From the NCBI GenBank assembly GCA_949317995.1, contig OX439047.1:2466501-2530500 (forward strand): a DNA stretch of 64,000 nt, written 5' to 3'. The translations under genes were made by a program, and so were the position numbers. Under the pieces are notes generated by a model, which saw only the letters and a list, made by a program, of their open reading frames with translations, did not search any database and was not told the origin of the DNA. The DNA comes from Acholoe squamosa. Its lineage: Eukaryota; Annelida; Polychaeta; Phyllodocida; Polynoidae. This document shows positions 14,467 through 56,962 of this stretch, piece after piece. The number at the start of each line of letters is the position of its first letter. The stretch's first letter is position 1.

Positions 14467-14534
14467 GAGCATGCATCTACATCTATTCTAAATCACCATC
14501 TATATGTATTATAGCATGCATCTACATGATGCAT

Positions 14535-20966: not shown

Positions 20967-21011
20967 AACCGACTGACTGAAACCTAGGGTGTAAAAACCC
21001 GCCATCCCAAA

Positions 21012-21045: not shown

Positions 21046-21109
21046 TTCTGAATTCTGTCTCTGATATGTTATCTCCTGGTGGTGGACTGGGGGAAGTCTA
21101 GGCTGTTTC

Positions 21110-29516: not shown

Positions 29517-29665
29517 AGGTACTCAAACCTCTCAAAACACACCAATTAATCAGGTAAGCAACATACGCCAAGATTCTATTCATAATTATTTCACGCCGAT
29601 CGGCCCTTCGCCGAGCGACATCATTCATTCCAAACCAAAACAAATGCACGCGGGACTCTTGACCT

Positions 29666-30232
29666 GTGCGCTATGAATCGCGTAACCTAGCAACGACACC
29701 CTCTCGTCATAACAACAATAACGTTGCGTTGACGACCGTGTCGTCGTCATCTTTTGAATCAATCTCAATGATAGAAAATGAAACGATCCCTAATATCTAT
29801 ACACCCACAGTTATAACTAGAACTATAACTCGGTTTGTTGATTCTAATTCAACCCAGGCCACCCCAGCACGCGAACTAGAGACGCAGTTCTGGGCAGACC
29901 CTAACCGGACCGACTACCAACACGCCAGCACCAGTCATGCTGCCGACCCGGGTTGGTGGCCCACTGAAACAGGCACGAAGGTAAGACCATATACAATGAA
30001 TATGAATACAAATAAATCACTTACCTCCCCACATCCTGTGACACTCCGAACCATCGGCACTGATCCTATCAGTGAGCTAAATATCCCAACATCGGGCGCC
30101 TCAACGCCCACCCCGGGACCGTCTTCCCCAAATAATACGGGACTTCCCCCAAATGCGGCGACACAACCTGTGACGTCACGGGTCTCCCACGCCCCGCCCC
30201 TCCACCGTTTCCCGCCACAACTCACCGGGTAA
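29666..30232 (+). other. Thr/Ser/Pro-rich open frame in the 5' part of Penelope-like element 1
   Basis: The 188-codon open frame lacks a convincing ATG and is of low complexity. It contains a good splice donor (AAG|GTAAGA at 29980). It may be 5' UTR or an upstream exon of ORF1; I cannot join it in phase with ORF1. Confidence 0.3.
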
Positions 30233-30315
30233 CTACCGAGGGTACCAACACAAGCACTTGTGTTACCAATACTAATGCAGGCACACTAACTTATGTTACT
30301 AATTACTCAACTATC

Positions 30316-31712: not shown

Positions 31713-34650
31713 TTATAACCCATTGACCACCACCCAACCACCAAACCTGACCCCTGCTGCACAAGCCTATCCTGCCAATAACCTCCCACCTAACCAGGGA
31801 CCCGGTGTACCCCCTAATGCCCCCCAGTCTGCGGTTTTTTGCCACAGCTTGGACCAGGCCTGTGACCAACAGAAGGCAACGCCGCCGGCAGGATGCCCAA
31901 CCAAGCTCACCAAACAACCGCCAGTGCAACAACCAACCACGCCAGCAACAACCAACCAATCAACGCAACCGACAGCCTGGCAATGCCCAGAACCCCCCTC
32001 AGGGCAACAACCAGGGCAACGCCAGAAGCAACAACAACAATTTGACGCGCAACGAAATGGAACAACTGAGGCAACTAATCCAACGCCGTCAGTAAATTCA
32101 CACCGACCCATTTATGGGCGTGCTAGAGACTCTGTTTTATCATACTATGAACAATACAACTTAGACTTGTTCAATGACACTGATTTTCTAGCCAGTCTAT
32201 CAATCTATTGTATCGACTACCTTCCAATTCTACAGTCACATAGAAACCAAAATTGTAATTCACACAATATTGATAAAAATGCCCCAACTGATAACCACTC
32301 AGGTGTTGTTAATCTCTCTTCCCATCAACTTACAGAGGGAGAGTACAGCCTCTTACAAAAAGGACTAACCTTTGTGTGCACCCCCCGACCCCCTGACCCA
32401 GGCATTCTATTTGAAGATCTAGCAAAATTTCACTTAAGCATCAAAAGGGAATTGGCTATTGCCAAATTCACAGATGGTAAAACGGTTGACCCTCCGCCAC
32501 CCGTTTTTCCACCTAGGGAAATAGAGGCCCCTTTCCGCAATAATAAATTCAAAAATCCCTCACTCTGGAAGCCCCCAGGCCCAGCAATTGTGGAACACAT
32601 GTGCCTACTAAATCAGACACAGTTAGAAAACACCCCCATCACACCTTACCACAGATCCAACATTACCACAGCTGAAAAAGAGGCTAAACTCTCCCTGTCC
32701 GCCAATGAAGATATCATTATTAAAAAGGCTGATAAAGGCTCAGCTGTAGTAATACAGAATCGATCTGACTATATCAATGAGGGTCTCCGACAATTAAATG
32801 ACAGAGATTTCTACAGATTGCAGGAAACAAATCTAACGAGTTTCCACCAGGCATTGGTGAAAAGCCGGGTTTCAAAAATGCAGAAAGATGGTGAACTCAG
32901 TCAGGAGGCAGCAGATTATCTCATAATCCCCAAACAGAGAACCGCCAAACTTTACTTACTGCCCAAAATACATAAAAATAAATTGCCTCCACCCGGCAGA
33001 CCCATTGTGTCAGCCAATGACTGCCCGACGGAAAGAATCTCTCAATTCGTAGATTACTTCCTACAACCTCTAGTAGCATCACTTCCTTCCTACTTGAGAG
33101 ACAGCAGTGATTTTCTAAATCAAATAAAAGATTTAAAAATCCCTGCCAACTCTATCCTAGTCACTCTAGACGTAACCAGCCTCTATACCAACATTCCTAC
33201 CAATGATGGCATAAAGGCTGCCAGAGGGATTCTGAACACTCATAGACATCCCTATCAGAATCCATCGACCTACTCAATTTGTGATTTACTACACTTAGTA
33301 CTAACATGTAACAATTTCGAGTTCGATAACAAACACTTCCTACAAATCAGCGGCACTGCGATGGGAACAAAGGTGGCCCCTTCGTATGCCAATATTTTCA
33401 TGGGAAGTTTTGAATCTAAATTCGTATATCCATATCACACTCAACCTCTGATCTGGAAGAGATTCATTGATGACATCTTCATGATTTGGACCCATGGGGA
33501 AGAATCTCTCTTGATGTTTGTGGAACACCTAAACAGCTGCCACAAAACCATCAAGTTCACATTAGAACACTCCAGATCAGAAATTAATTTCCTTGATGTA
33601 AAAGTCCTTCACGACCAACAGGGAAATATTGCAACCACACTATATTGCAAACCCACAGATAGCCACAACTATCTACTGTACTCTTCTGAACATCCAAGAC
33701 ACGTACTCAAGGGGATCCCCTATTCACAATTCCTCAGAGTACGACGCATTTGCTCAAACACCCTGGAATTCAGACGCAATGCACTAATGCTATGCACCCA
33801 CTTCCTACGCAGGGGGTATCCAAGAAAACTGGTTATAACTTCATTAATTAGAGCTGAAGAACAACCTAGGAATGATCTACTCAAAATCAAAGAAAAGGTC
33901 ACTGACTCAGCAAAATCATTCTACTGCATTGTCACTCACAACCCAGCAAACCCACCAGTGGAGAACATAATACGCTCCCATTGGGATTTGATGCTGAAAT
34001 CTAAGAAAACCAGAGTGTACCATAATGCCCGACTAATATTTGGCAAACGCCGCAATAAATCACTGGGTGATGAATTGGTCAAAGCTTCTACAAGCACTGA
34101 TCCCCCAGACGGGCGTAAAATCCCACATGTCAGAAGACATCCATGCAAGAGACCCCACACGTGCAATTATTGTCCAAAATTAAACAGAGATGGATATATC
34201 TATTCACTACGGGACGGCAAAAGATATAGAATATTGATCAACGTCAATTGCCAGACTGCTAATCTGATCTATGCTATCACTTGCAAACACTGTGGCATAC
34301 AATATGTAGGCCAAACAGAAAAGAAGCTACTGGAAAGGTTCAAAGGCCACATGGGTGACATTAAAAACATCAGCCATGACACAACAGTAGCCAGACACTT
34401 CAGATCATGCCCAAACAGCAACAGATTACCTGAAGAATGCTGGCAAGACGGCCCCATCATCTCGATCTTAAATTTCATTAAAAACCCTGCCAACTCCAGA
34501 GAGGGTCAACAAGAAAGGAACCAAGAGGAAAAAAATGGATGCACCGTTTGTGCACTATCATTCCTCAAGGGCTTAACGTTCTCGACTAAAGAATCAGAAA
34601 GCCAATCTAGTCACAAACAACCGGAACCAATCAAGCTAAAAGCAGACTAG
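31693..34650 (+). CDS. Penelope-like element 1 ORF2: reverse transcriptase with GIY-YIG endonuclease (985 aa, intact)
   Basis: An uninterrupted frame. Gln/Pro-rich residues 1-135 may be ORF1 overlap rather than enzyme. The RT core includes VTLDVTSLYTNIP (about 489-501), TAMGTKVAPSYAN (about 553), the catalytic FIDDIF (about 590) and INFLDVKV (about 630). A Cys-rich linker (CKRPHTCNYCPK) leads to the GIY-YIG nuclease with IYAITCKHCGIQYVGQT (about 858-875) and a following ERFKGH. This order is diagnostic of endonuclease-bearing Penelope-like elements. It overlaps the ORF1 end by 20 nt in another frame. It is the only long enzyme ORF in the window with no visible lesion. Confidence 0.92.
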   Translation: MLVSYTNYNPLTTTQPPNLTPAAQAYPANNLPPNQGPGVPPNAPQSAVFCHSLDQACDQQKATPPAGCPTKLTKQPPVQQPTTPATTNQSTQPTAWQCPEPPSGQQPGQRQKQQQQFDAQRNGTTEATNPTPSVNSHRPIYGRARDSVLSYYEQYNLDLFNDTDFLASLSIYCIDYLPILQSHRNQNCNSHNIDKNAPTDNHSGVVNLSSHQLTEGEYSLLQKGLTFVCTPRPPDPGILFEDLAKFHLSIKRELAIAKFTDGKTVDPPPPVFPPREIEAPFRNNKFKNPSLWKPPGPAIVEHMCLLNQTQLENTPITPYHRSNITTAEKEAKLSLSANEDIIIKKADKGSAVVIQNRSDYINEGLRQLNDRDFYRLQETNLTSFHQALVKSRVSKMQKDGELSQEAADYLIIPKQRTAKLYLLPKIHKNKLPPPGRPIVSANDCPTERISQFVDYFLQPLVASLPSYLRDSSDFLNQIKDLKIPANSILVTLDVTSLYTNIPTNDGIKAARGILNTHRHPYQNPSTYSICDLLHLVLTCNNFEFDNKHFLQISGTAMGTKVAPSYANIFMGSFESKFVYPYHTQPLIWKRFIDDIFMIWTHGEESLLMFVEHLNSCHKTIKFTLEHSRSEINFLDVKVLHDQQGNIATTLYCKPTDSHNYLLYSSEHPRHVLKGIPYSQFLRVRRICSNTLEFRRNALMLCTHFLRRGYPRKLVITSLIRAEEQPRNDLLKIKEKVTDSAKSFYCIVTHNPANPPVENIIRSHWDLMLKSKKTRVYHNARLIFGKRRNKSLGDELVKASTSTDPPDGRKIPHVRRHPCKRPHTCNYCPKLNRDGYIYSLRDGKRYRILINVNCQTANLIYAITCKHCGIQYVGQTEKKLLERFKGHMGDIKNISHDTTVARHFRSCPNSNRLPEECWQDGPIISILNFIKNPANSREGQQERNQEEKNGCTVCALSFLKGLTFSTKESESQSSHKQPEPIKLKAD

Positions 34651-38452: not shown

Positions 38453-39612
38453 TTAGTACATGTGGTAGTGTGTGACAGGAAGACAGCAGGCAGTGAGTTG
38501 AACGTTGTTGTCATAGAAGGAGCACAGGACTGTAGATATCGCATGAGTAGTCAGGGCAGCAAACCTAAGGTAAATGCCCAGCTTGCCTTGCTTGATGACG
38601 TTTATACGACCCTCTTCAGGTGCTCTGTCTGGGGTTAGGTCGAAAATGAAGAAAGAATACCCGTCCTTGAACTCTTCTAGAGTTATTCCGCAGTCTTGAC
38701 CCAGAGCCAAAAGTCTGCTGTCTCTGAACATTTGACTGTCTGCTCTTATGCAGACAATCAAATTGACGTTGAAGTGTTTGCAGTTGAAGGGATTTTCTGT
38801 TTTAGTTCCAGCAGCCGCTGTTTCCTTTATCATACACAGGAGTATTCTTGTGGGAATTTGAGTAGTGTCCGGTTGAGTCCAAGTGTAGTCTTGTGAACCA
38901 CCGTCCAGTGTGCACTTTGTCATTTTACATCTTGCATTTCTGCACTCCTCACACTTATAGCATGAGTTTCCACCACCTCGTTGTCGACACTCCTCTGAAG
39001 CAGGGACATTTTAGCTTTGGTGATTTTGATCGTGTAGTTTTGATTGGCTGCTTGCATCATGTAGAAGTTGGGCTGGTTCCTCTCAAAGATGAACTAGATT
39101 TCACAGTGAGGTGGTAACACCTTGCACTGCTTAATTAAATCCAGATGTGGCCTCATGACTAAGGCGTGCTTGTGACCACTGGTGTCTTTCATGTACTTTT
39201 GACAACCTTTCAGGCGAGTTTTTTTGTCTTCTTCATTGCTACAGAGAGTGTCCAAAATGTGTGCCTTGAGGGCGTAGTCTTCGTTGTTCCCGGTCACCTT
39301 CTTCCCATTAATGAGAAGTTGGAAGGAGGCAAAGAGAGCATGTCCGAAGTTGTTGACCAGCGCCGCTTCTATGTCCGCGGCCAGGTGAGTGGTTCCATCG
39401 TCCGCCACAGCTTCCAGTTCCAGGTACAACTCTGTTTCCGACAGGTCTGTGTACAAGTTGGTTGCTTTGGTTTCAGTGTGTAGAGTGAGTGTGTTGTTGG
39501 TAGTTTTGGTTACCACCTGACTTTTGATGATGTCCTTTTGAGTGACAGGTAAGGCATGTAGGTGCAGTTCCCCTACAGCACATATCTGACCCTTGGGATG
39601 AAGGAGACTCAT
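38453..39612 (-). pseudogene. Major capsid protein (double jelly-roll, adintovirus type), broken
   Basis: The N-terminus MSLLHPKGQICAVGELHLHA and the middle (VNNFGHALFASFQLLINGK) match the capsid-like family widely annotated in invertebrates as 'F54H12.2-like', a name I give from memory. The C-terminal frame (38923-38453) has NPFNCKHFNVNLI and FFIFDLTPD, the family's hallmark motifs. The gene is split into three frames (39612-39094, about 39093-38924, 38923-38453), so it is dead. Known role: hexon-like capsid. Confidence 0.75.
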
Positions 39613-40834: not shown

Positions 40835-42188
40835 TGTCATACTAGTAATTGTGGATGATCAAGTTGTCATATGAGAAATATCATATGACTAGTGGTATAT
40901 AGAGTAAATACAGCAAGCTCTCATAAAATAGTGTTATTTCCAGTTATCACTGGTTTATTCAGCTTTAGGCAACATGTAAGAAATATCAATCACACAGTAG
41001 TTAGTATGCAGGTAATTTCCACATACAGTAAATATACAATAATTCATAGAGTATAATGTTCTGTTCCACTCCACCTGTGAGGTAATAATAATACAATGTC
41101 CAGCATAGTTCTAGGTGGGTTCCCACACCTAGCTCCTGACCTGCTGCTTAGAGGAATAATGTAATAAAAAATAACTTAACCCTCTGGTGGATGTCTTGTA
41201 GAAGATAGCCTCTGGCCACTAATGATGGAATCCTATGCCTGTCTAGCATAGTTTCACCATAGTGTAGAGGTATAGCAGGTAGCAGGAGATGACTGGAGAT
41301 GTTACCTCTGGAGCGGTTCTGGAGATTCTGATTTCTAGGAGGAGCAGCCAGGCTATTTGTAGCAAATCTTGGCTTTGCAACTCAGACTGACTGGAGCCAG
41401 TGGCATCTGCCTAACTCTGCAATTGTTTGAGGGGAGTCTTTCATGTGTCACAGGGTGCACAAAGGACCCCCATAGACGCCGCCATGCCCCCCATTGTCTT
41501 GGTCGGTTCTGTAACTTCAAACCCTCATATTTAGGAAGTTTACGCAGTTACAACCGCCATTTTGGGCATGCGCGGAGTTGAATATGCCAAGTTACTAATG
41601 CCCGCTCGCCGGGCGCGTAACTCGCGTTGGTTTGTCTGTAGCGCATTCTGAGTTTAAATTAGTCTCCATGGCGTAACTTCCTTAATAATAGGAGTTCCGC
41701 CTTGCTATTGGGCTCATTTTGACCGTCCAATTATGGGCTTTCCATAAATGCTTTGATATTTGACCTAAGTTGCTCAGGAGCGACGCTAGAGTGACCGGAA
41801 GGTTATGGCGTCGTGACTTATGTAAGCTTTTGTTCAGTGTTTGGGTGCTCAGACACCCGTGACGGCGTCAGCGGTGCCCAGGCACCTCTAATGGCCGGTT
41901 GCATTCACTTACAAGTTATTAATTTGTGCACTGAACCATGAGGTCGCACACTGAGACCCTTCAAAGCTTTATATTATGCAGTGAACCATGAGGTCGGTTC
42001 ATTGGTGATGTAACTTATGTATATTTGAATATAGCTGGTGTGCAGTGGAGCATGAACGCTCTTATACAAAGTTTGAGCGCTCTTATAGCTCTTAGAACCA
42101 ACCTATGTATTGATTCCTTATACAACACATTATTTGATCAATACAACAATATGTCACAATTTATGGGATAATAAAATGGTATATGATA
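40835..42188 (-). repeat. LTR-B (3' LTR of copy 2)
   Basis: Starts TGTCATACTAGTAATTG. Its right border is near AATAAAATGGTATATGATAG, followed by TCTCCCCCGAAAAAATG, whose complement is purine-rich (CGGGGGAGATGGAG) and fits a polypurine tract next to the 3' LTR of a minus-strand element. In sequence it is closer to LTR-A than to LTR-C. Confidence 0.85.
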
Positions 42189-42399
42189 GAATACTCCATC
42201 TCCCCCGAAAAAATGCGAAACTCCGTCATTTCGCCAAGGGAATGTACAATATATATATTTTTACCTTATTTGGAGTTATATACTGTTTGTAAGAGGATTT
42301 GAAGTGATGGGGAGTGCTTCAAATACAATTTTTGTGGTAGAGCTTTGTCAGTATATATAAACAATTTTTCTCCTGGGTATAAGTACATTTCCGTAATTC

Positions 42400-43835
42400 T
42401 ACATCTTCCCATACATGGGTGTATTTGCTTATGTAATTTCAATTTTGGGTACAAATTTCCAATTTTATGTACAACATACAATTTGGCAAATATCATCTAA
42501 TTTTTGGCGTGCAATTTTGGCATTAAATGTTCAATTTAGCGTGCAAATTGAGCATAAATGACAATTTTAGTGTGCAAATTTACAATTTCGTGTGTAATTG
42601 CGTTCAATTGACAATTTTAGTATGCAAATATACAATTTTGCATTCAATTGACAATCTTAGTATGCAAATATATAATTTTGCGTTCATTTGACAATTTTAG
42701 TATGCAAATATACAATTTCGCGTGTAATTTTTGTCAAATGGCAATCTTAGTTTGCAAATATATAATTTCGCGTGTAGTTGGTTACACATGATGTTTTTGG
42801 TTGTGCAACTATATAATTTCACGTGTAATTGGTCACAAATGATAATATTGATTTTGCAAAAATCCAATTTAGTGTATGAATTGGGTACAAACGTACAATA
42901 TAATGTGCAACATACATTTTAGTGTGCAAATTGGGTACAAGCGTACAATCTAGTGTGCACATAGCAATTTAGTTTGCAAATTGGGTACAAACATACTGTC
43001 AATGGACCATTCTGGGTATTACAATTATTTTTCATATTTACTAAATTCTTCGCCATATAAAACCTGAGCTCTGCCCATGATCTACACTCAATAACATCCT
43101 GCATTCCCCAACAGGAACCAGGATCCATTACTCATCACAAACACACTTCCTCGATGACACTCTGTGACATAAGGTACAAGGATGTAATAACATTCCAACC
43201 TTATCTACGCATACACAGTGTAACTGGAGGAAGTGCGATCCACCTGTGGTGCCATATTTGGAATGAGAGAATATTTCACAATCTCCTCTCAATCCTCATC
43301 AACATGACTAACACACAGGTGGCAATCTCTCCCTATGACACGTGTCCCTATTTCATTGAGCCACGTGTATAGAATATTTCACAACACTGTGAGCTGCTCA
43401 AGTCTTTCATATAAAAGGCAGCTTGAGCAGCTCCCAGTCATCTCTCCCAACTTACACCTTACACCTATACCTAGAACCTACGACAGGTTGAGCTATAGGA
43501 TCAGAGGCAGAGCTTAGATCTTGGCGAGTGTTATCATTGTTACCACCTTTATGAAACACTCATGTCAGCTATGCAATAAAAGGATCAACTGAACTTCCCT
43601 GGATTCCGTGTATATTCACTTCACCACATGTAACCGTCCGTTGACAGTACAATCTAGTGTGCAAACATACAATTTTAGTGTGCAAATTGGGTACAAACGT
43701 ACAATCTAGTGTGCAAACATACAATTTAGTGTGTAATTGGGTTCAAATGTACAAACTGGTGTGCAACATACAATTTTAGTGTGCAGTTGAGTACAAATGT
43801 ATAATTTCGGTATACACTATGCAATTTTTGGGATT
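42400..43835. repeat. AT-rich degenerate tandem repeats in LTR element copy 2
   Basis: Same repeat family as 19190-19745 (GTGCAAATATACAATTTCG, GGGTACAAACGTACAATC), with extra units. It is interrupted at 42997-43646 by an unrelated solo LTR. Non-coding. Confidence 0.8.
42997..43646 (+). mobile_element. Solo LTR of an unrelated retroelement (about 650 bp)
   Basis: Starts TGTCAATGGACC and ends GTCCGTTGACA, absent at the same place in copy 1. The flanking bases ATAC and GTAC may be a 4-bp target duplication with one change. It contains TATAAAAGG (about 43412) followed by a start-like CAGTCATC and a poly(A) signal AATAAA (about 43575), the layout of a promoter-bearing LTR. No coding capacity. Confidence 0.7.
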
Positions 43836-44535
43836 TGAGACAAATTTTTCCGAGGACCGGAAAAACAAGGTACATCATGTACAATAGGCTCGTTTGTCTC
43901 TGAGTTACTCTGTAATTTTGCTATACGGGTGTATTAATTGGCAATTTCAGCAGTGGGCCGCTGCTTTTAATAGACTTTTCCCTAGCCTTTTTGAGTATGT
44001 GTCCCTAAAAGAGATCATTTGGTGAGTATCTTAAGTAAACAATTTTATGTCAACAATTTTCTCATTTTTTTTTTTTCCATTAATTTTTCCAACAATTTTC
44101 TTGGATACCTAAAGTGTGTTACCTTAAGTAAACCTTGGTATAGTATACAAGTGCTAGTGGGTACAAAAACTGTCTTAGTTATCTACCTGCATTCATGTAT
44201 ATTAATGTTAGATTTGTACAATTTACAATTTGCAATTTGCGCGTATATGCGCGCATTAATCATCAATTTTGTGAGAATACCATAGATTTTCATATTATAC
44301 ATCAACAAGTGGCTGTGTATATATTTTTTTTTTTCTAAATCAATTTTTTTTTCAATACTTTGATATTTTCATTGACAGTGGAGGTGTGTTAGGAATGAGA
44401 TGTGAATCTCTTCCCTGATGTGCTCATGCAGTGGTGGCACTTGAGGTGTTAGGTGCCAGATTTTGGCATGTGTCTGTGGCAGTGCATAGCTTGGTGTCAG
44501 TGGACAGTTCAGGGTGGGGGGGGGGTGTGTGTGTC

Positions 44536-44574
44536 CATAAAAGGAGGGAGTGGCTGGTATTGGAGTATCAGTTC
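44536..44574 (+). promoter_or_regulatory. TATA box and initiator of the opposite-strand gene, copy 2
   Basis: CATAAAAG (44536-44543) and TCAGTTC with its adenine at 44570 are spaced as in core promoters (TATA about 31 bp upstream of the start). The predicted 5' UTR is 32 nt to the ATG at 44602. Confidence 0.65.
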
Positions 44575-44601
44575 CTCACTGGAAACCTTTGCTGCAACAT
44601 C

Positions 44602-45075
44602 ATGGCTCACTATCAAGCTATCCTTGACTTGCCTGTGTCCCAGGTGATGGTGGTGGGGAGTCCGGCTAGGGCCCTGGTGGAGGCCAACCAGACCCTACAC
44701 TACGGCTATATAGTGAAAAATCACAGAGAAATCTGTGAGCACGGTGATGTGCTGGTCGACATGTACTCATGCCACTACTTTTTGGGTTCAGTCTTACGTC
44801 GGGGGGCCACTGTGGCCCTTTTGGCCAGGGCCTTGACTAATATAGGGTCCTGGCCCATGGATTCTAACCTCGGGCCACGTGAGCGAATGTTGTGGGACTA
44901 TTTCATGGCAGTCTCCTTTTTTGATCTTGCTGTGTCCGGGGACACATCTATGGCTGCTGAGTACGGACTGGGATCGATGGAGGCCCGACTTCTTGAGTGG
45001 GATCGTGACCACGGCCACATGTATGGATCGGACTCCTACTCTCCCGCCATTGTTGATCCCGAGGCTCTGTGGTAA
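44602..45075 (+). CDS. Opposite-strand accessory gene of the LTR element, copy 2 (unknown protein, 157 aa)
   Basis: Intact, intronless, same length as copy 1, without indels, while env and pol next to it carry several. It starts MAHYQAILDLP, and the central REICEHGDVLVDMYSCHYF and GATVALLARALTNIGSWPM segments are nearly invariant. No domain is recognised; it is not a histone. It is convergent with env: the stem-loop ends about 87 nt before the env stop. Opposite-strand genes are known in retroviruses (HTLV-1 HBZ), but no sequence relation is implied. Confidence 0.8.
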   Translation: MAHYQAILDLPVSQVMVVGSPARALVEANQTLHYGYIVKNHREICEHGDVLVDMYSCHYFLGSVLRRGATVALLARALTNIGSWPMDSNLGPRERMLWDYFMAVSFFDLAVSGDTSMAAEYGLGSMEARLLEWDRDHGHMYGSDSYSPAIVDPEALW

Positions 45076-45122
45076 AAACCCGACTGACTGAAACCTAGGG
45101 TGTAAAAACCCGCCATCCCAAA

Positions 45123-45160
45123 GGCCCTTTTCAGGGCCGGCAACTTGTCCGAAAAGTTCT
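45123..45160 (+). terminator. Histone-type 3' stem-loop plus purine-rich downstream element, copy 2
   Basis: GGCCCT-TTTC-AGGGCC at 45123-45138 is identical to copy 1, 47 nt after the stop, preceded by CCCAAA and followed by CCGAAAAGTTCTG. Histone mRNAs are cleaved just after this structure, bound by SLBP and U7 snRNP; by analogy the transcript would lack a poly(A) tail. Confidence 0.8.
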
Positions 45161-45224
45161 GAATACTGTCTCTGATCTGTTATCTCCTGGTGGTGGACTG
45201 GGGGCAGTCTAGGCTGTGGGCAGC

Positions 45225-47832
45225 CTAGGCTGTTTCCACAGTCACCGGGGAGGGTTGGTGGTTAAGAAAATTAGCAATAGTCTGCATGTTTGACCTTGCG
45301 GTCTCCTCCTGGTGTTCGTCAATAATTATATCTGTTGTATTTTCCAGTGCTGTCATGGTCACCGGGCTGGTGCCACAATCATTTTGGAGAATCATGGAGT
45401 AGTACAGTCCCTTGTTTTTGAGGGCTGGTATGGTGCTGAACCTAGTGCGCCAAGGTAAGTGTACCACCTGAGGAAGGTGATAAGAAAATTCTCCTCTCTG
45501 TGTTGTTATAACTGCTGGTCCATTCCAGGTAAATATTGCCTTAGGTAGTGGGAAGGTTTTAACCACTATTTCCTTATAGGTCGGGGCAGCTGCTGATTTA
45601 ATCTCATCAAATTCATCACGTATTGGCCTCATGGGTAGCGCAAAGTTTGAGTCTCCGCAATATATTTTAAAATATATTGTGGGATTTGTGCGCTTGGCCA
45701 CATTTCTCTTGCCACAGTGTGTCTGTGCAAATTTCTTAAGGTACTTCATTATTCTGTAGGCTGAGTAGATGGTCAGGGTGAATAGTATAGCAATTATCAG
45801 GGTGTGGGTTTCCTCTGTAGGGGTTGATTTGGTAGGATTTTTATCTGGGAGCAATTTGTGTAGGGGCAGCTCGGTGACTAGTCTAAATGCTTTGGCTGTA
45901 GGCAGGTAGGCTACAGTTCGTCCTAGTCTGTATAGTTTGAGTAGTATGTATATTATAAAAATGTGTTATCCCTAGAATGAGTCCTAAGCTTTGGAAGATT
46001 GGATGCTCTGTAACTCGACGTAGGTGTGATTCTACGTAACGTGTTTCCATTGCCTTATCAAGGTTGGAGGCATCTTTTAACAATGTTTTGGCGAAGGGCT
46101 CTAGATTTAGTTGAGTAATATCATCCATGATTGGATTTTCCTGTAGTTTTTCTAAGGTCCTAGAAAGGTTTACTACTGGGAAATTTGGAAGATTCTCTCT
46201 TTCATCTGGTTTAGTTTCAGAAATTTGGTTAAGTGCTGCCATGAATGGTAAATTAATTGTCTTGTTAATGTAATGAAATGATAAGGTTGAGTTACAGGGC
46301 AACCTTGTGTTTGGAAGAGAAAATTCTCCTACACTGATTGTGCACCCACAGGGTACACCTATGATTGAGTAGGACTGGGCTTTTCGGGTTTCAGACGTTT
46401 TACCATGGCAGTTGATAAAGTAATGGGGTTCATTAGTAGTGACCAGATACTCATCTTCAGAAATGGAAATAGCATGGGTGGTAGGTGCTTGCAGTGGTGA
46501 AACTGTAAACTTGCAATGTTCCTTAATCTGTTGAGCCTGGTTAGTAAAAATGGCTACAGGGCATGTAGGCCTGTGTTTATAAATTCTACCATTTACATCT
46601 CTACATACCTTTACTGTAGTACCTTCACATGCCTGCATATCCGCTGAGTCCAATTCGATGAATAATGATTCGTCATAAGATACTGCTAGAAACTCAGTTG
46701 TGGTTTGCAATCTGGTGACTCCTCTGGTGGGGGTCTCCTGTGTGTCTATAGGCATGGGTGATGTAATCATTTGGTACAGTTTGAAGGTAGAGGTAGTAGA
46801 TTGAATTATAATGTCCAGATGAATATATATATGGTGAGCTGAGTAAGTGTATGAGGTCAGCTTCTGTGAATAATAGAAATCTAAGTCATTAATTGCGACT
46901 TGTGCTCCAGGGTGTGTAATCCTAAGTTTGTTATTAATGTCAATTAAGTATCTAGCAAGGTCTGAGGGTGGTACTATATCAGGGGTTAGGATTCCTGATG
47001 ATAGCATCCTCAGGGCTGCATTTGTTCTTTGCAGTGGTTGAACTGTATTCATTCTTGCTGCTATGATGATTAATGCATCATTTAGTACTTGCATTTTTTC
47101 CCTTTGAGTTTTCTCGTGCCTTGAATATGAGTCAAGTGACCTGGACATGTTAGAGGCCCATAGGTTGAGGGTGTCACCTATGGTGTTGATTGTGCTGTCC
47201 AGTACCTTCTTATCTTGGATATATGCTTTAACAAACTTATCTTGTCTGTCTGTGACCTTTTCGATGAGACTTGCTGCTTCCTGATCTTGTTTAGCAAATT
47301 TTCTTAGTATTTCATCTATGTTCTTAAGCTGTCCCATTACTTGGTTTACATCTTCTACTGTGGCTAGACCTAGCACACCGCGAAACAGGGGTGCTAGAAA
47401 ACCCAGTATGGCCTCTCTTTTGGCCTTGTCCAATGTGTTTATGGGGTTGGCTAAGAACAATTTGATGGAGGCTAATGTTTTATTTATCTCCTTGTCTGCA
47501 ATTTCCAGCAAGGTGTCAAGCTCCTTGGCTTGTTGGATAAATTGACCAGAGGTATGATCTTGTAGAGTAGGAGTGGTCAATTGGAGTATTCTATCCTTTA
47601 TGGATCCTTGGGTAACGGGTGCCCGAGGTATCTTGTAAGGGATAGCTAACAACAGTGTTGTGGTTGTATGTCCATTGACCAATGGTTGAGGGCTAGGTTT
47701 GAATACTACTCCTATGTTTTGTCTCACCACAGGTGTATAACCTGCAGTAAGTGGTTCTATAATATATAATAACAGCATAGTTAGCAGTATGGGTGCAACT
47801 CTCAGTCTTCCCATGGTGCTTGTGTAAAGCAA
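45225..47832 (-). pseudogene. env: Envelope-like (F-type) glycoprotein gene of LTR element, copy 2
   Basis: The minus-strand frame of 649 codons (47832-45883) is followed by a second frame (45854-45225), separated by a short deletion near 45965 in the membrane-proximal region. Visible features: signal peptide (about 1-31), basic site KAKR (136-139), hydrophobic fusion-peptide-like segment (140-157), long heptad helix (about 160-260), a Cys-containing domain (about 400-500) and C-terminal hydrophobic segments in the second frame. By layout it is a class I-like fusion protein of errantivirus/baculovirus F type. It is a broken copy, though more complete than copy 1. Confidence 0.8.
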
Positions 47833-48630
47833 ATTTGCTGTTTAAAGTCTTTTCAAATTTGTAGTAATTTGGTGCTGGTAAAGTCTAAGTGTATGGTGTA
47901 AATGAAGTGGTTCAAACTGTACCTTTGCAAGGTTGAGCTGTCTTGGCAATATGTCCGGTGAGTCTATAGAGATTGACCAATAAATGGTAAGGTCAGGTTG
48001 AAGGTGAAGTAGGTGTGTTCTTTATCCTAGTGCAGTCTCTCCTAATGGAGAAATGGGCTGGCTAATTCCCAAGTGGGGTCCTGTAGACTTGTGTTCCAGA
48101 CTGCAGCTGGATGAAGACTGATGGTGGGCTATGGTCCACAGTGCTTTTTATGTAGCCTACCCTACCTACATCCATAGTGGGCTTGGTATTGTTTCTCTGG
48201 AGTCATGTACATAATCTCCAGTGTCTGCACCTGTGGGGTTCTATTGTGTTATCTGTGTACTGGTAATTAGCTCCTCCTGTCATCCAGGACAGCCATTCAT
48301 GACCGTCTAGACAGTTGTCTGAGGGTAGCTTAAAAGGTCAATTGATCTCTATAGACTGCTGTGTTGGCATAGCGCGCTCTTTCATGTGGGGATTAGGCTT
48401 TAGACACTCCATTGTGTTACCCTTACTCTTCTTAGACTTCATGTCTGCTTTACTTGGAGGGTCCCAGTCTTTGACCATTCAGTGGCAATAACCTACTGAT
48501 ATGTCTACAAATTTGATTGGCTTTATATATATAATTAATTCATTATCAGTCACACATGCCTATGTGTGGATGAAGAGAATTTGTAATAAACTTTGAAAAT
48601 CTTATGTTCTTTAGGTATCTCAATATGTTT
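47833..48630 (-). other. Spacer between integrase and env, copy 2
   Basis: Non-coding, about 800 bp, strongly conserved with 23725-24531. Its length is unusual for an errantivirus-type element, where pol and env usually lie close. Confidence 0.5.
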
Positions 48631-50982
48631 CTAATTTCTTGAAACTGCACCACATCTAGATGTTTTTCTTAGTATGTGGTGTGCAGGCCTAGGCTTGATA
48701 GGGCCTATACCTGTGGTTTCTCTTGTAAGGGTGATATCACTTTTGTTCCTTACAATTTTGTTGTAGTATTTGGTTTCATGTGGAATAAGCCTGTGTGCAA
48801 ATTCATTGTTCCTGACAGCTACAACCTTTTTCAGTCTGTCTATGTGCACAGGTCTGGCCACTAATAGATTGGTGTCCAAGTTTTTGAGTTTGGCACTTGT
48901 CAAACTAGGTCTATCTACTACAACATATGGTCCCATAAAAAGGGGTTGAAGCTTCTTACACTCTGTGTTCGTCAGGATTCTTGGTATGTTTAGGTACACC
49001 ATGTCGGTGACCTTGATTTCCTGTGGTGTAAGTTTCTTATCATATCTATCCTTTCTTTCCTTTTGTAGCTTGGTGACCCTTTCTATAGCTTTCCTCCTAG
49101 AGGTATCTTGATTTGTTATCATGTTAGCTACATGGTCTGCTACAGTGGATATGTCTTCCTGTATTCCCAGCCCTAAGTCCATTGGGGTGGCTGGGTTTCT
49201 TCCATGGAGTAGGAAGAAAGGGGTGAATCCTGTGGTTTGGGATTCTGTGTTATTTAATGCAAAGGTTATGGGTTCAATAAATGAATCCCAATTATTTTGG
49301 TGCTTTGAGCAGAATGCTCTGAGCGCTGTGCCAATGCTAGCATTGAATCTCTCTACAAGCCCATTTGATTGTGGCCTGTATCGTGAGGAGAATTTATGTT
49401 TGATCTTGAGGTGTTTAGTTAACTTTGTGAACTTTGCACCTGTATAACATGTTCCATTGTCTGTTTGAAGAGTGGCTGGTGTTCCATGATGACAAATTAT
49501 ATTCTTGTAGAACTCTGCTGCTGTTGTTTCAGCTTTTAAGTCAGTAGTAGCCCAAGCTGTTGCATATCTGGTAGCATAATCTATGCAGACTTGTATATGT
49601 TTGTTTCCCCTGGCAGTTGTGGGAAGTGGTCCCACCGCGTCGAGGTTTAGGAACTTCATTGGTGAAGCCATGTACTCTCTCACTGTCATTGGTGTTTTGT
49701 GTGAATGTACTTGCCTTTTTGCTGTGAGGCATGTGTGGCAGGTGGAAACATATTTTGTTGTGTCTGCTAGCATAGACTTCCAATATACCCTAGGTCGGAG
49801 TGCTGACAGCATCCTACTTGAACCAAGATGGCCACCAGTAGGTGAGTCATGGAAATACTGTAGTGTACTTGTTACCCATTGCTGTGGTATAACAATTTGA
49901 AGTGGTACAGTATTGGTTTTTCTCCAATTTATTGGGCATATATGGACTAATGTACCATTTACCAAGGTGTATGTCTGGCCTTGGTTGATGATTCTATTTC
50001 CTTGTGCTTTTGGTGCAGGCAAGGTCCCATCCTCAAGATATTGTATGAGGGGCAATAGTTCCTTGTCCTTCCTTTGTTCCAAGCCAAGGTTTGTACCTGA
50101 GATGGATGTGTCGGGAAACTGATCCAACAGTTGGTTTATATCTAGCACATGCTGTTTTATTCTGTCTCTTTCTTTTTCTTTCTCATCGACTATTGGCCTA
50201 TCTTGTGCCTTTTGTTGGGGTGTGACACTCTTGTTTTGGTGTGTAGGCTCCTTTGGAGGGCCTACTCTTGCCTTGATGGGAGTGGCAACCTTTTTCTTTA
50301 AAGGCACAATTTGCTTTTTGTCATTCTTCTGTTTCTCAGAGTTCTTTGATTTATTTGGTGCAGTGTCTTTTGTGACATTTTTCCTGGCAGGTTGGGTTTT
50401 GGTGGGTTTGTTTCCTGTGACCTTTTTCTCTTTTAGAATAGTTTGTGATTGTGTGGGGGGTTTTGGTGTGCCCTCCTGAATCATTTCTCTAGTCTTTGAG
50501 CGTGTGGTCATAGGACACAAATGGTTTGGTGCTTTCTCTCCCTGCATTGATTCAAAGAATCTGACTGATTTGGAAGTTGCTTGAGTAATAGCATATAGTG
50601 TGTCTTCTGAATCTTCATCATCTGAGTCGGGTGGGGTGAAGGGTGGCTCCTTAGGAGTTGCCTTCAGCATCTGATTGAGTGATGAGAATTCAATAGGCTC
50701 GAAGTCATTATCTGGAAAGAGTTGTGAGTATTCTCTCTCACAATGGCAAAACACATAGTGTGTAGATTGCTTCAAGATACCCCTAATGGGTGTCTCTGGC
50801 CTTTCAATGGTGTTGGGTGGATCATCCCTTTTGAATGGTACTTTCTTTGTTACTTTTGCAAACTTGGTTCTACTGGCTGCTCTAACTCTCCTTGGTGGGG
50901 GTGGAGGGTTAGTCATGGGTTCAGAATCTGGGTATTCTCTTCTAGACATAGCATCTGGTGGTGTGTTATCATCACCTTTCAC
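48631..50982 (-). CDS. pol: Integrase portion of pol, copy 2
   Basis: 783 codons. It continues directly from RNase H (HVKGDD, PDAMSRREYP) through a Pro/Lys-rich linker to the HHCC zinc domain (HDSPTGGHLG, CHTC) and the DDE core (LDAVGPLP, TDNGT, VERFNA). It is separated from RT/RNase H only by one stop (CAG to TAA, 50987-50989). It shows that integrase is part of one pol frame in the ancestral element. Confidence 0.9.
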   Translation of the reverse strand: MKGDDNTPPDAMSRREYPDSEPMTNPPPPPRRVRAASRTKFAKVTKKVPFKRDDPPNTIERPETPIRGILKQSTHYVFCHCEREYSQLFPDNDFEPIEFSSLNQMLKATPKEPPFTPPDSDDEDSEDTLYAITQATSKSVRFFESMQGEKAPNHLCPMTTRSKTREMIQEGTPKPPTQSQTILKEKKVTGNKPTKTQPARKNVTKDTAPNKSKNSEKQKNDKKQIVPLKKKVATPIKARVGPPKEPTHQNKSVTPQQKAQDRPIVDEKEKERDRIKQHVLDINQLLDQFPDTSISGTNLGLEQRKDKELLPLIQYLEDGTLPAPKAQGNRIINQGQTYTLVNGTLVHICPINWRKTNTVPLQIVIPQQWVTSTLQYFHDSPTGGHLGSSRMLSALRPRVYWKSMLADTTKYVSTCHTCLTAKRQVHSHKTPMTVREYMASPMKFLNLDAVGPLPTTARGNKHIQVCIDYATRYATAWATTDLKAETTAAEFYKNIICHHGTPATLQTDNGTCYTGAKFTKLTKHLKIKHKFSSRYRPQSNGLVERFNASIGTALRAFCSKHQNNWDSFIEPITFALNNTESQTTGFTPFFLLHGRNPATPMDLGLGIQEDISTVADHVANMITNQDTSRRKAIERVTKLQKERKDRYDKKLTPQEIKVTDMVYLNIPRILTNTECKKLQPLFMGPYVVVDRPSLTSAKLKNLDTNLLVARPVHIDRLKKVVAVRNNEFAHRLIPHETKYYNKIVRNKSDITLTRETTGIGPIKPRPAHHILRKTSRCGAVSRN

Positions 50983-50985
50983 GTG

Positions 50986-51950
50986 TTAGATGGTGAATGA
51001 AAATTGCTGTATGTCTAGAGCCCATCTAGCCCATCTATGTGTGAGTCCTGTAATGGTTAGTAGTGGGATTAGGGCTGCATGGTCTGTGTATAATTGGAAG
51101 TGTCTAGTTTCTAGATATTGTCTGAAGTGTAATACTCCATACACTACTCCCAGTAGTTCTCTCTCTGTGGTATTGTAATTTCTCTCATGTTTGGAGAGGG
51201 TTCTACCTGCAAAGGCTACTGGTCTGAGCACTCCTTCATTATCTCTCTGTGAGAGTACAGCTCCTAAACTCACATTGGAAGCATCAGTTGCCAAACTGAA
51301 CTCTTTCTCATAGTTTGGATATCTGAGAAGAGCATTGGTACAGAGGGCATGCTTTAATGTTTTGAAAGCATTATCTGCATCCTCTGTCCAGACAAATGCT
51401 TTGAGATGTGTCTGTAGATCATACAATGGTCTAGCAATTAGGGCATAACCTTTGATAAACTTTTTGAAGTATTGGCATAGGCCTGTGAAGGATCTGACAT
51501 TTTTGACTGATTTTGGTGTTGGGAAGGTTTTGATTGATTCCACCTTTGTGGGAGATGGTTGCAGTCCCATGGGTGTGACTCTCATTCCCAAGAAGTCTAT
51601 TCTGTCTATGAAGTATTCACATTTTGATTTCTTCAATTTGAGTTTACCAACTCTTAAGCTGTTGAAAACATCTTCCAGGTCATGGAAGTGTTGTTCGATT
51701 GATGGTGATAATACTAATATGTCATCTAGGTATGGTAGGGCACATTTGTATTTGAGTTTGTTCAGAATTAATGTAACTAGATGGCAATAGGAATTTGAAA
51801 AAAATCCCTGTTGGGCATCTAGCTTACTGAATACTCTTGGTCTAAGTGACCCTATCATGTCTAGAGTGTCATCGGCCCGGGGTGTAGATAAGGCTTGATT
51901 TATCGTGTTTTGGTTCAAATGACGAAAATCTGTGACGAGCCTATTGCCTC
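50986..51950 (-). pseudogene. pol: Reverse transcriptase and RNase H portion of pol, copy 2
   Basis: The frame 51918-50986 has KLDAQQG, YLDD, RNase H LATDAS and YTDHAAL. A deletion joins KLDAQQGFF directly to CHLVTL, removing the PMGLATAPAGF motif that copy 1 keeps. A nonsense codon separates it from integrase. Inactive. Confidence 0.85.
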
Positions 51951-52005
51951 CCGATGATTTTTGTACTAAAAAGGATCTGGAAGCCCAGGGGCCCCCCTCA
52001 GCACA

Positions 52006-53259
52006 TTATCTCAGAATGCCCTGTTGTACTAGCCTTTCACATTCTTCCCCTATTGCGGCCTGTTTTTCTGGTGTTTGTCTATATGGTAGGAAATGACATG
52101 GTACTGCTTCAGGTTTCACATGTATTGAGTGGGTATACAGGTGTGTAGCACCAATGTCTCCATCTTTTCCTACAAATATATCATCATACTTGGTCAGCAG
52201 TGATTCTAATCTATCATGCTGATCTTTGGATGTGAGCACAGATTTTGGTGGAACATTCTCTTCCAATTCTGGGTCGAGGTCATGTGCCTCACTATGTATA
52301 GCAGCTATTTCAGAGAGTCTGATTGAGTTGGGTTCAGGGTCAGCATATGTGGACTCACAGTCTGAGTCTGTGTCGCTGAATTGAGTAACATCCTCAGGCC
52401 GTATGGCTGAGATGGATTGATCAGCGTGTGGGGTAGTGTCTGACACCTGTTGAGGTTCTTCTAAATCAGATTCCTTGACTTCCTGAAATAGAGCTATGAT
52501 GGCACCCTTTTTGATTTTATGTGGGCGCCTGCTGGTGTTGAGTAACACTAGGGGATGTTTGTTATTTTCCCTGGGGGTTACTGCTGCCCTTTGAACTAGA
52601 TATGGGGCATTGTTATTTATTGGAGGTTATCTACTACTCCAGTTTTGCCTTGCAGTGATTGAGTAGAAGTGACTTTACCCAATACTGCAAGTTCAGAGAA
52701 TGGAGGGACGGTAAAATCCCTCACTGCCCTAATGGGTTTGAGAATTTGTTCAGGATCAACATTAAATTTGAGACTTTGTAGTGTTTAAGAAATCTGTGCC
52801 GAGAACAACAGGCTGTGTGAGGTTGGGTATTACAGCAAATTGGTATTGGAATCTGACACCTTGGATTCTAAAGTTCAGCATAGCTGAATGTCTAACATGA
52901 CACACCGATCCATCTGCCAAATGGATGTTGATTTTAGATTTCCTCAGTTGGATATGGAATCTCTTTTGGAGATCCATGAGGAATGATTGTTTGACACAGG
53001 TGATAGTAGCACCTGTATCAACCAAACATTGTACATCTGAAACATCATATAGATTTGCATTGATACAGCCATTTTGAAGAAGTACAATAGAAAGCTTGGT
53101 ACTCTCACCTGTATCCTTTGATGATGGATCTGGTGGGGTGATGTGTATAACTGATGAACGTCTCTGTCTGTTAGATGGTAGATTGGCACTAGCAATTGTC
53201 TCTGGTTGGATCTTTGTTAATCCTGATTGATTGTTTGTTTTTGGGGTGTCACAGTGCAC
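52006..53259 (-). pseudogene. pro: Retropepsin-type protease and RT N-terminus, copy 2
   Basis: The frame 53259-52762 has the active site LVDTGATITCV and VVLGTDFL. Small deletions near 52765 and 52620 break it. The acidic linker and the first RT segment continue in 52548-52006. Same order as copy 1. Confidence 0.8.
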
Positions 53260-53299
53260 TGGCCCATCGGCACTGTGACATCCTAGTTTTCCTGGTTCT

Positions 53300-53640
53300 G
53301 TGGGGCGGTTGCGATGCCTGCCACCAGGAGCTTGGAGATTTGATCCATCACTTGAGGTGGTATTTGGGGGTTACTCTGTTGGTTCCCCTGGTAACCTCTT
53401 GTGTCGGGCTTGTGATCCTCCTGACGTGAGTTGGAACCCTGGTTATATTGACCAGAGTTGCTGTACTGACCAGAGTTGTTGGATCCCTGGTTGTTGTAGG
53501 CACCATTGTTGTTGTAGGATCCACTGTTGTAGTTCCTATGTGGACTATGGCTTCTGCTGTTGGATCCTTGATTATAGGATCCAGAGTTGTTTGAACCCTG
53601 GCTGCTGTTGTAGGAACCATTGTTGTTGTAGGATCCAGAG
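53300..53640 (-). repeat. Repetitive Asn/Gly/Ser-type gag tail region, copy 2
   Basis: Repeats of about 30-60 bp (GTTGTTGTAGGATCCAG, GTTGGATCCTTG) lie between gag and protease and extend the low-complexity tail. They correspond to the site used by the Penelope-like insertion in copy 1. Confidence 0.65.
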
Positions 53641-54849
53641 TTCTAGTTCCTATGTAGACTATGGCTCCTACTGTTGGATCCTTGATTATTATAGGATCTG
53701 CCATTACTTGGGGTTCTGTCTCTCCTATCACTGTATGAAGAGTTACCATTGTTGGAGTTGGAAGAGCTGTTGTCTTTTCTACTGTTGTGACCCCCCCGGT
53801 TGTTGCTGTTGCCCCCTCTACCTCTACCTCTACTGGATTGGTAGTTGGGGTCATAGTTATTTCCTCTATATCTACCGGTAGGGTCTTTTGATGTAGCCTT
53901 AGCTTCTTGTTGCCTTACATGGGCACTAGACATTAGGTTAACATCTTCATCTGCACTAGTGCTGATTTCCTGGACCTTTTTCTTAGTAGGCTGTGGGTTA
54001 GACTCTGCATATAATGTTCTCCTAGATCTTTCTTGGGTCTCAACCTCCAAGGCTAGGTCTAGGGCTTGGTCAAAAGAGTCTATTTTCTTGTTTTCAAGAG
54101 CTACAGAGATCCAGGGCCTCATGCCTTGGGTAAATGCTTTGCTTAGGATTTCATCGCTTTGGCGTTGGGCATTACACACTTTCCTGAGATGGCATGCATA
54201 GTCTAGGACAGGGTCATCTATCTTTTGTGCACGGAGTGCAGTCCTGGAGATGATATTGTCTCGAGTAGCAAAATACCCTTTAATTTATTCACTACATTGG
54301 TCCATGTCAACATATCAGGTGTGGCACTTTCCCTGAAGGATTCAAACCAAGCTAATGCTTGTCCTTCAAGGTACTTGGGTAAATATGTTACCATGGTGTC
54401 ACTGTCTGTTACTTTGTACTTGTCCTTCAGATATTCTGGGAATTTGTGATCAATAAATAATGCTGTTGACATGAGTGGTGATGGGTGAGAAAAAGTTTTG
54501 GGTTTTGTTACCTCATGTTACCTGATCTTTCTGTCGTCATGTTGTTGTCTGCCTATGGGCTTGGTCACGTTGGACACCATAGAGATTATGATGTCATCTT
54601 TGGATCCAGAGGCAGATGGTGTGACGACAGGTGTGGGTGTGGGAGGCTGGGATGATACCATCTTCATGAGATCTGCTATCTGTTGTTGTTGTCTCTCTAG
54701 GGCATTCCGCTGGTCTGCCAATTGTTGGTTGAGGATCCTCTCCTCAACTTGTTGGCCTCTAGGGCAGTAGCTGCATCTTGGATGGCCTTCTCATAGGCCC
54801 TTATCTTCTCAGCTGTCTGATTAGGTTGGAGGCCTTCATCGGTGTCCAT
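53640..54849 (-). pseudogene. gag: Gag polyprotein of LTR element, copy 2
   Basis: The start ATG is at 54849 (MDTDEGLQPNQ). The coding region is split by short indels into 54721-54518, 54472-54218 and 54179-53643. The last part keeps the C-terminal tail lost in copy 1: Arg/Gly-rich (SRGRGRGGNSNNRGG) and Ser/Asn-rich, an RGG-type RNA-binding tail instead of a CCHC zinc knuckle. Confidence 0.8.
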
Positions 54850-55530
54850 GATGGAGGGTGTGGGAGAAGTGTCTCTGGAGGAGTGGCTGTCAAAGGCCGG
54901 AGCTGGGGTGGAAGATCTAGATGAGGGTGTGGATCCACCCCCTGAGGCAGATCCTTCTTCCCCTGAGGTAGATAACGTGAGTTGAGCGTTCTGTAGAGAT
55001 CCCTGGGGAATGTTGGATCCCCTGAGAACTGGTTGTTCCCTGAGTAGACAGGGTGGGTGGTGTGGGGTCTACTGAGTGTGGGTCTGTTGTATTAGAGGCT
55101 GGGTTGCCCCCTGTGGGTCTCCTAGATCTAGGTGGGAGGAAGACCTCATCAACAGGTCCCTGACTACGTAAGGTCTTTGTGTGTTGTTCTGCCAGCTTGA
55201 CTGATAAGACCTTGATGTGTGGGGAGACCTCACTGACGTGTGGGAGACCTCACTGACGTGTGGGAGACCTCCCTGACGTGTGGGAGACCTCTCTGACGTG
55301 TGGGAGACCTCACTGACGTGTGGGAGATCTCACCGGTGACCTTGGTGGGTATGGTGTCAAGGTCAAGGTCACTGGGTGGGTGGAGTGGGTCTTACTGTGT
55401 GTATGATTGTTCTTAGTTGCGGTACCAGCTTTAATTTACTGTGTGCATGATTGTTCTTAGTTGTGTTACCAGCTTTAATTTTTATGAGCCTGTGAGAGAT
55501 GGGATCTTAGTAGGATGTTCTCCACCACTT
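54850..55530 (-). other. 5' leader with tandem repeats and PBS candidate, copy 2
   Basis: Next to LTR-C, the minus strand reads AAG then TGGTGGAGAACATCC (55527-55513). It starts with TGG, as expected for pairing to a tRNA 3' CCA end, so it is the likely primer-binding site. At 55220-55335 five to six units of about 20 bp (GTGTGGGAGACCTCACTGAC) form a tandem array; copy 1 has about two. Confidence 0.6.
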
Positions 55531-56874
55531 TGTCATACTAGTAATTGGCATGATCAAGTTGTCATATGAGAAATATCATAAGACTAGTGGTATATAGTAT
55601 AATTATCTCAAGGCTCTTATAAATAGTGTTATTTCCAGTTATCACTGGTTTATTCAGCTTTAGGCAACATGTAAGAAATATCAATCATACAGTAGTTAGT
55701 ATGTAGGTAATTTGTACATACAGTAAACATACAGTAATTTATAAAGTACAATGTTCAGTTCCACTCCACCTGTGAGGTATTAATAATACAGTGTCCAGCA
55801 TATTTCTAGGTGGGTTCCCACACCTAGCTCCTGACCTGCTGCTTAGAGGAATAATGTAATAATGAATAACTTTACCCTCTGGTGGAAGTCTTGAAGGAGA
55901 TAGCCCCTGGCCACTAATGATAGAAACCAATGCCTGTCTAGCATAGTTTCACCATAGTGCAGTGGTATAGCAGGTAGCAGGAGATGACTGGAGATGTTAC
56001 CTCTAGAGCGGTTCTTGGTGATCTCCCTTCTGGAGGTGCAGACAGGCTATTTGTAGCAAATCTTGGAAAAGCATCTCCAGACTGACTGGAGCCAGCAGCA
56101 TCTGCCTAACTCTACAATTGTTTGAGGGGAGTCTTTCATGTGTCACAGGGGGACAAAGGACCCCCATGGACGCCGCTGTGTCCCCCTTTGTCTTGGTCGG
56201 TTCTGCATCTTCAGACCCTCATAACTCGGTCGTTTATGCGTTTATAACCGCCATTTTGTGCATGGCCAGAGTTGAATATGCCAAGTTTATAATGCCCGCT
56301 GGATAGGCGCGTAACTCCCGCCGGTTTGTCTGTAGGGAACTCGGAGCTCCTTTCAGTCTCCATGGCATAACTTCCTTAATAATGAGAGTTCCGCCTTGAT
56401 CTTGGGCTCATTTTGACCGTCTAATTATGGGCTTTTTATAAATGCTTTGATATTTGACCTAGCTTGCTCAGGAGCGACGCTAGAGCGACCGGACGGTTAT
56501 GGCGTCGTGCTTATGTAACCCATTGTTCAGTTATTAGAGTTCTCAGACACTCATGACGGCGTCAGCGGTGCTCAGGCACCCGTGACGGCCGGTTGCATTC
56601 ACTTACAAGTTATTAATTTGTGCATTGAACCATGAGGTCGCACACTGAGACCCTTATTCTTATTATATTGTGCAGTGAACCATTAGGTCAGAGCCTTTGA
56701 TGTCATAAACTCTGTCTAACTGACTGTGGCTGGTGTGCAGTGGGGCATGAACGCTCTTATATAAAGTTTGAGCGCTCTTATAGCTCTTAGAACCAACCTA
56801 TGTATTAATTTTATAGATATTCTTTGATTAATACAATAATGTTAGAATTTATGGAATAATAAAATGGTATATCA
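55531..56874 (-). repeat. LTR-C (5' LTR of copy 2)
   Basis: 1344 bp from TGTCATACTAG to GGTATATCA. It aligns with LTR-A and LTR-B over its length but is visibly more diverged from both (for example GGAACTCGGAGCTCC against GCGCATTCTGAG). It retains the minus-strand AATAAA. The 5 bp outside are tagtt. Confidence 0.85.
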
Positions 56875-56962
56875 TAGTTTAAGGGAACTAGGGTAGATAT
56901 ATGATTAAGCTTATGCCCAAATTCTTCCAGTCTACAGACAACTTTTCTTCTAGCTCAACAAA

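Follow-up and report, generated by a model that had tools for sequence, protein, structure and literature searches.

In the stretch of DNA analysed here, 64,000 nucleotides in length and referred to below as the window, an LTR retroelement carries between its env and its 3' LTR, on the strand opposite to pol and env, a gene that is probably built like a replication-dependent histone gene, an architecture from which processing by SLBP and the U7 snRNP as well as expression in S phase would follow. With somewhat less assurance, we also favour the reading that this non-histone mobile-element gene uses the histone 3'-end pathway, which would yield an accessory protein timed to S phase from an antisense mRNA that lacks a poly(A) tail.

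The sequence CCCAAA-GGCCCT-TTTC-AGGGCC is found on the plus strand at 45117-45138 and at 21006-21027, once in each of two copies of the element (copy B and copy A, respectively), and CCGAAAAGTTCTG begins 10 nt past the stem in both. The earlier note, which had drawn attention to this hairpin, described the two copies as identical. This holds for the hairpin, CCCAAA and CCGAAAAGTTCTG, but the spacer between the hairpin and CCGAAAAGTTCTG differs at one base between the copies, and the identity therefore does not extend over the whole stretch. Likewise, the distance of 46-47 nt that had been given between the stop codon of the antisense ORF and the hairpin fits copy B, where the stop-to-stem gap is 47 nt, but not copy A, where it is 45 nt.

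The histone genes of the host provide a yardstick for these ends. A Pfam Histone search of the host genome gave 31 matches, most of which belong to a tandem cluster (C6:82.68-82.77 Mb), and one fetched histone unit, L134, encodes H3, H4, H2B and H2A, as named from their sequences. A 5S rRNA gene (119 bits) was also observed at positions 3926-4044 of L134, on the minus strand; as it sits inside the histone repeat unit, L134 shows linkage of 5S with core histone genes. The 3' ends of the H3, H4, H2B and H2A genes read CAAA GGCCCT nnnn AGGGCC CCAYTCTCTCWC AAAAGTT, and that of the element reads CAAA GGCCCT TTTC AGGGCC GGCAAnTTGTCCG AAAAGTT. Stem, CAAA flank and AAAAGTT core are therefore equal in the element and in four of four host genes, with the core lying 13 nt past the stem in the element versus 12 nt in the host. 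Differences are confined neither to the loop, which is TTTC in the element and CCTA, TTAC, CTAC and CTAC in the four genes, nor to the spacing: the 3' flank of the stem is GGCAA in the element versus CCATT or CCACT in the host, and what the downstream parts have in common is limited to the seven-nucleotide core AAAAGTT, without its borders. At the level of sequence, the histone-type 3' end proposed in the earlier note is thus borne out, since histone genes of this very genome have the same stem, 5' flank and downstream core, and the anatomy of the gene resembles that of a histone gene.

Covariance models were applied to the same ends. The Rfam histone 3' stem-loop model (RF00032) gives the element hairpin a score of 21.4 bits (E=0.0011 when 301 nt are searched), and over the whole 64-kb window no Rfam family reaches its gathering score. 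A score below threshold had been named beforehand as grounds for giving up the proposal, and formally 21.4 bits does fall short of the gathering score of 34; yet we do not regard this as a refutation, as the host's own histone ends score 23.1 (H4), 19.6 (H2B) and 17.8 bits (H3), with H2A unlisted at E values up to 1. Because host histone ends fall below 34 bits too, the gathering score does not separate true from false in this host, and we dropped it as an arbiter. When the 64-kb window was searched with a covariance model trained on the four L134 histone ends alone, the two element copies took ranks 1 and 2 of five matches (23.7 and 23.3 bits, with rough E values of 0.006 and 0.008), while rank 3 was an unrelated match with 16.3 bits and an E value of 0.31.

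Further copies were collected from the genome, of which 1.48 Gb in 63 contigs were searched. The exact 19-mer composed of AAA and the hairpin occurs 1312 times genome-wide, versus 0 times for the reversed control, and these sites do not come from genes like the four of L134, because the loops of those are not TTTC. All eight hairpin-found sites that were fetched (L001-L008) follow a relative of the antisense ORF. A protein search, in which 150 of 1670 candidates were scored (identity 83-100%), led to the fetching of 110 of those 150 places; copy B (L009) is among these protein-found copies, copy A is not. L001-L008 were left out of the retention counts, the 107-copy diversity analysis and the inherited-variant analysis, while five of them contributed to the protein alignment and to the dN/dS set. 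Copies with a disrupted stem, which the earlier note had held to speak against its proposal, do exist, though as a minority: the 19-mer is perfect in 97 of the 110 protein-found copies, carries one or two mismatches in 10, and is lost or cut in three (L030, L063 and L117, whose 3' side is lost or cut, and which were counted as misses in the 110 and kept out of the 107-copy alignment). A perfect 19-mer followed by AAAAGTT exactly 13 nt later is retained in 90 of the 110 copies, an ATG-to-stop ORF of at least 155 aa in 99, and the complete set of TATA-like box, initiator, ORF and 3' signal in 81.

The positions of these parts in the window are compiled in Table 1. In the 108 copies that have both a TATA-like box and an initiator, the spacing between the two is 33 nt in 106 and 34 nt in two. 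The distances are close to those of the host histone genes, with 67 nt from the TATA-like box to the ATG in the element versus about 44-74 nt in the host, and 47 nt from stop to stem in copy B versus 28-46 nt. Downstream of the stop, neither AATAAA nor ATTAAA is present within 1.5 kb in either window copy, and within 300 nt AATAAA was found in two and ATTAAA in none of 118 copies (the 110 together with the eight hairpin-found ones). This result bears on the possibility of dual 3' ends, namely that the hairpin is recognised while a large part of the mRNA reads through to other signals and is polyadenylated there, as in the dual processing reported for H2A.X (PMC7807067). A mobile element may also need expression outside S phase; nevertheless, with these canonical signals, the ones searched for, missing from both window copies, we consider this explanation unlikely.

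Table 1. Features of the retroelement copies and their antisense gene, in positions of the window.
Feature	Position	Strand	Basis
Histone-type stem-loop GGCCCT-TTTC-AGGGCC, copy B	45123-45138	+	sequence, Rfam, host-trained covariance model
Same stem-loop, copy A	21012-21027	+	sequence, host-trained covariance model
5' flank CCCAAA, copy B	45117-45122	+	sequence; CAAA invariant in four host histone ends
GGCA, predicted cleavage after CA	45139-45142	+	CA cleavage rule from PMC6303110
HDE-like core AAAAGTT, copy B, 13 nt past stem	45152-45158	+	host ends: AAAAGTT at 12 nt
HDE-like core AAAAGTT, copy A	21041-21047	+	sequence, host-trained covariance model
Antisense accessory ORF, copy B, 157 aa, one open frame, stop TAA 45073-45075	44602-45075	+	
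Antisense ORF, copy A (aa 2 to stop)	20496-20966	+	88% identity to copy B, without internal stop
TATA-like box CCATAAAAGG (CCATTTAAGG in many copies), 67 nt before ATG	44535-44544	+	sequence; 109/110 copies
Initiator-like TCAGTT, predicted transcription start	44568-44573	+	sequence; 109/110 copies
env-like reading frames (two adjacent), convergent with antisense gene	45225-47832	-	Baculo_F 23.6 bits (cut-off 24.1)
pol: RT, RNase H, integrase	48631-52005	-	RVT_1, RT_RNaseH_2, Integrase_H2C2 and rve above Pfam cut-off
3' LTR of copy B	40835-42189	-	self-comparison with 55531-56877, 87.4% identity
5' LTR of copy B	55531-56877	-	self-comparison

The antisense protein is acidic, with a pI of 5.0. 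Pfam searches returned no family for it, whether with the two window copies (E values up to 1) or with four relatives (E values up to 10); the product of the antisense ORF thus has no histone family match, in agreement with the earlier description of the protein as non-histone. PHROGs contained no family matching it, and a search of 5.8 billion proteins gave 264 word-sharing candidates but no homologue at E values up to 1. When viral contigs were searched with a peptide pattern of the antisense protein, eight stretches matched and none was confirmed as a relative, and the best PDB sequence match had an E value of 0.052. An AlphaFold2 model calculated from the L001 protein together with 22 other copies was all-helical with a mean pLDDT of 51.7, a quality insufficient for searching by fold, so that the protein is perhaps helical, according to a model of low confidence. 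A regulatory function is possible for this accessory protein.

Both copies of the element lie on the minus strand of the 64-kb window. Copy B spans 40835 to 56877, about 16 kb, with LTRs of about 1.35 kb, and its LTR pair, RT, RNase H and integrase identify it as an LTR retroelement (Gypsy-like), while the Baculo_F match in its larger env-like frame remains just under the cut-off. Copy A starts at 17614 and shares 93-96% identity with copy B over the main inner stretches; a Penelope-like element (29663-34650), whose RT and GIY-YIG matches are near-threshold, interrupts it near 29.5-35.4 kb, and the 5' LTR of copy A was not found in the self-comparison of the window. By eye, ORFs at 60395-63129 resemble the Penelope-like element. 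Between the LTRs of copy B the difference is 12.6%, although most of the interior is 93-96% identical between copies A and B; the LTR divergence suggests an old insertion, the exchange of one LTR or a mosaic copy. Elsewhere in the window we observed a 9-kb tandem array at 5302-14468 with periods of 43 and 91 nt, comprising about 100 copies of the 91-nt unit, as well as two ORFs of 156 and 172 aa at 38453-39612 on the minus strand, outside the mapped retroelement, which perhaps derive from a DNA virus-like element, although this is a guess.

The antisense ORF is under purifying selection, its median dN/dS being 0.226 (243 of 253 pairs with dS > 0.05, drawn from 23 copies, five of them hairpin-found). 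Mean diversity in the 107-copy alignment amounts to 0.008 in the hairpin and 0.040 between the stop and the hairpin; third codon positions have a value of 0.086, and the region lying 42 to 200 nt beyond has one of 0.029. In the same alignment, the hairpin window ranks 18th of 899 in conservation, meaning that other windows are as conserved, and the whole 3' region is fairly conserved.

Such a rank would also be expected if an ancestor of the element had captured a histone 3' end, or an entire promoter-to-end frame, and the hairpin persisted as a relic only through the youth of the copies. Most hairpin variants in the 107 copies are private to one copy, as a relic would predict, and eight chosen copy pairs differ by 10-28% in the promoter and 13-26% in the ORF versus 2-6% on the env side, which may mean that the ORF is older than the 3' region. 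This divergence pattern of promoter and ORF versus env side looks mosaic, and conservation is therefore weaker as proof of function. On the other hand, hairpin and core together hold two shared (inherited) variants among the 107 copies versus seven expected from the flanks (P 0.018), in a test of moderate strength whose P value was obtained by drawing sites, with their linkage left out of account. In the eight pairs, no difference is seen in the AAA flank or the AAAAGTT core, whereas the same zero for the 16-nt hairpin arises by construction, because the hairpin was located by its exact letters. Moreover, the spacing is 13 nt in 90 of 90 copies that have both parts, while 10-16 nt were allowed. 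Taken with these observations, the relic appears improbable to us, and we continue to favour a 3' end that is in use. As an observation of its own, the antisense promoter and ORF (positions 44440-45600) appear as if they formed an exchangeable or fast-evolving module.

As the stem is a perfect palindrome, the hairpin might also act on the other strand, in the genomic RNA of the element, where its loop reads GAAA and could form a GNRA-type tetraloop. The host-trained model still assigns 10.4 bits to that strand, versus 23.7 and 23.3 bits for the same hairpins on the plus strand, in keeping with the earlier claim that the consensus is fitted on one strand only. A role on the minus strand would leave the CAAA flank, the AAAAGTT at fixed distance and the identity with the host histone genes unexplained, and is in our view very unlikely.

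A chance or convergent G+C-rich hairpin is scarcely credible and is strongly disfavoured by the host histone genes. The 19-mer, with up to three mismatches allowed, is expected 0.01 times per window and was found twice; 140 strand-positions in the window carry a perfect hairpin with a 6-bp stem and a 4-nt loop, and AAAAGTT follows 10-15 nt downstream in only two of them, the two element copies; and in 20,000 dinucleotide shuffles of the 60 nt downstream of the element's hairpin, AAAAGTT landed at 10-15 nt in a fraction of 0.0004. In favour of chance, the same 19-mer turned up in eight viral-contig stretches (L066-L073), in four of which it lies 5-9 nt past the stop of a long ORF, but none of the eight has AAAAGTT in the 61 nt after the hairpin. 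These matches are perhaps phage terminators and were set aside.

The element thus carries an independent antisense gene, in which a TATA-like box, an initiator and a short leader precede the 157-aa ORF and the histone-type 3' end. If this gene is indeed processed as a histone gene, host SLBP would bind the hairpin of the element, and the U7 snRNP would pair with the AAAAGUU core, CCGAAAAGUUCUG being the candidate U7-pairing stretch of the element. For histone mRNAs, PMC7026596 describes pairing of the U7 snRNA 5' end with the downstream element and cleavage between that element and the stem, and in the histone RNA examined in PMC6303110 the cuts fall at CA, 5 and 7 nt past the stem. The transcript of the element would presumably be cut at the CA about 4 nt past the stem and left without poly(A). 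In a search for the host U7 snRNA (RF00066; 65 of 302462 candidates scored), the best match reached 25.9 bits versus a cut-off of 34, and none of seven matches lay above it; the sequences of these seven candidates were also inspected by eye, and none was convincing.

Given histone-type processing, the antisense protein would therefore be made mainly in S phase. The element might gain from this in two ways, firstly by expression while the nuclear genome is copied, and secondly by a short transcript that ends before running far into env on the opposite strand. With 1312 genomic 19-mers, and with all eight of those fetched belonging to this gene, the element could therefore compete with histone mRNAs for SLBP and U7. 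Poly(A)-selected RNA-seq would miss such an mRNA, which may partly explain why genes of this kind go unnoticed.

According to PMC6303110, no protein-coding mRNA of animals other than histone mRNA is known to be of this kind, a rule that a mobile gene with a histone-type ending, if true, would break. Among the matches listed in a search of the open-access literature, covering titles and the beginnings of abstracts, none concerned a mobile element with a histone-type mRNA end. If the present reading is true, the element would offer a natural experiment on which features suffice for entry into the pathway, and a route by which a retroelement ties itself to S phase.

With regard to its overall build, the element resembles Gypsy-like elements with a Baculo_F-type env, which we take to be an errantivirus-like clade, in its pol domains and its near-threshold Baculo_F env frame, and departs from them in its length of about 16 kb, its 1.35-kb LTRs and its antisense gene. 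Plant Retand-type Gypsy elements (PMC11963269) resemble it in having antisense ORFs between pol and the 3' LTR, along with tandem repeats in the stretch from the sense genes to that LTR. Retand, however, is a plant lineage with TRP28 proteins according to the same text, whereas the antisense protein described here has no TRP28 match in Pfam, and a histone-type end is not mentioned for Retand elements in the passages of that article considered. Deltaretroviruses, which the same passages name, have antisense genes as well, for instance HBZ of HTLV-1, and these can be likened by description, being antisense genes in a retrovirus-like genome; for them, too, the passages make no mention of a histone-type end. 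The metazoan replication-dependent histone 3' end (RF00032, SLBP/U7) has in common with the element a 6-bp stem, a 4-nt loop, CAAA and AAAAGTT at 12-13 nt, and histone genes, like the element gene, consist of a single frame with a TATA-like box and a short 3' UTR. Unlike histone genes, the element gene encodes an acidic product without a Pfam family, is mobile and runs antisense to pol and env, and unlike host histone ends its own end has the 3' flank GGCAA and shares only the 7-nt downstream core. Among the systems considered, the nearest layout is that of the plant Retand elements, and the nearest 3' end is that of histone mRNA itself.
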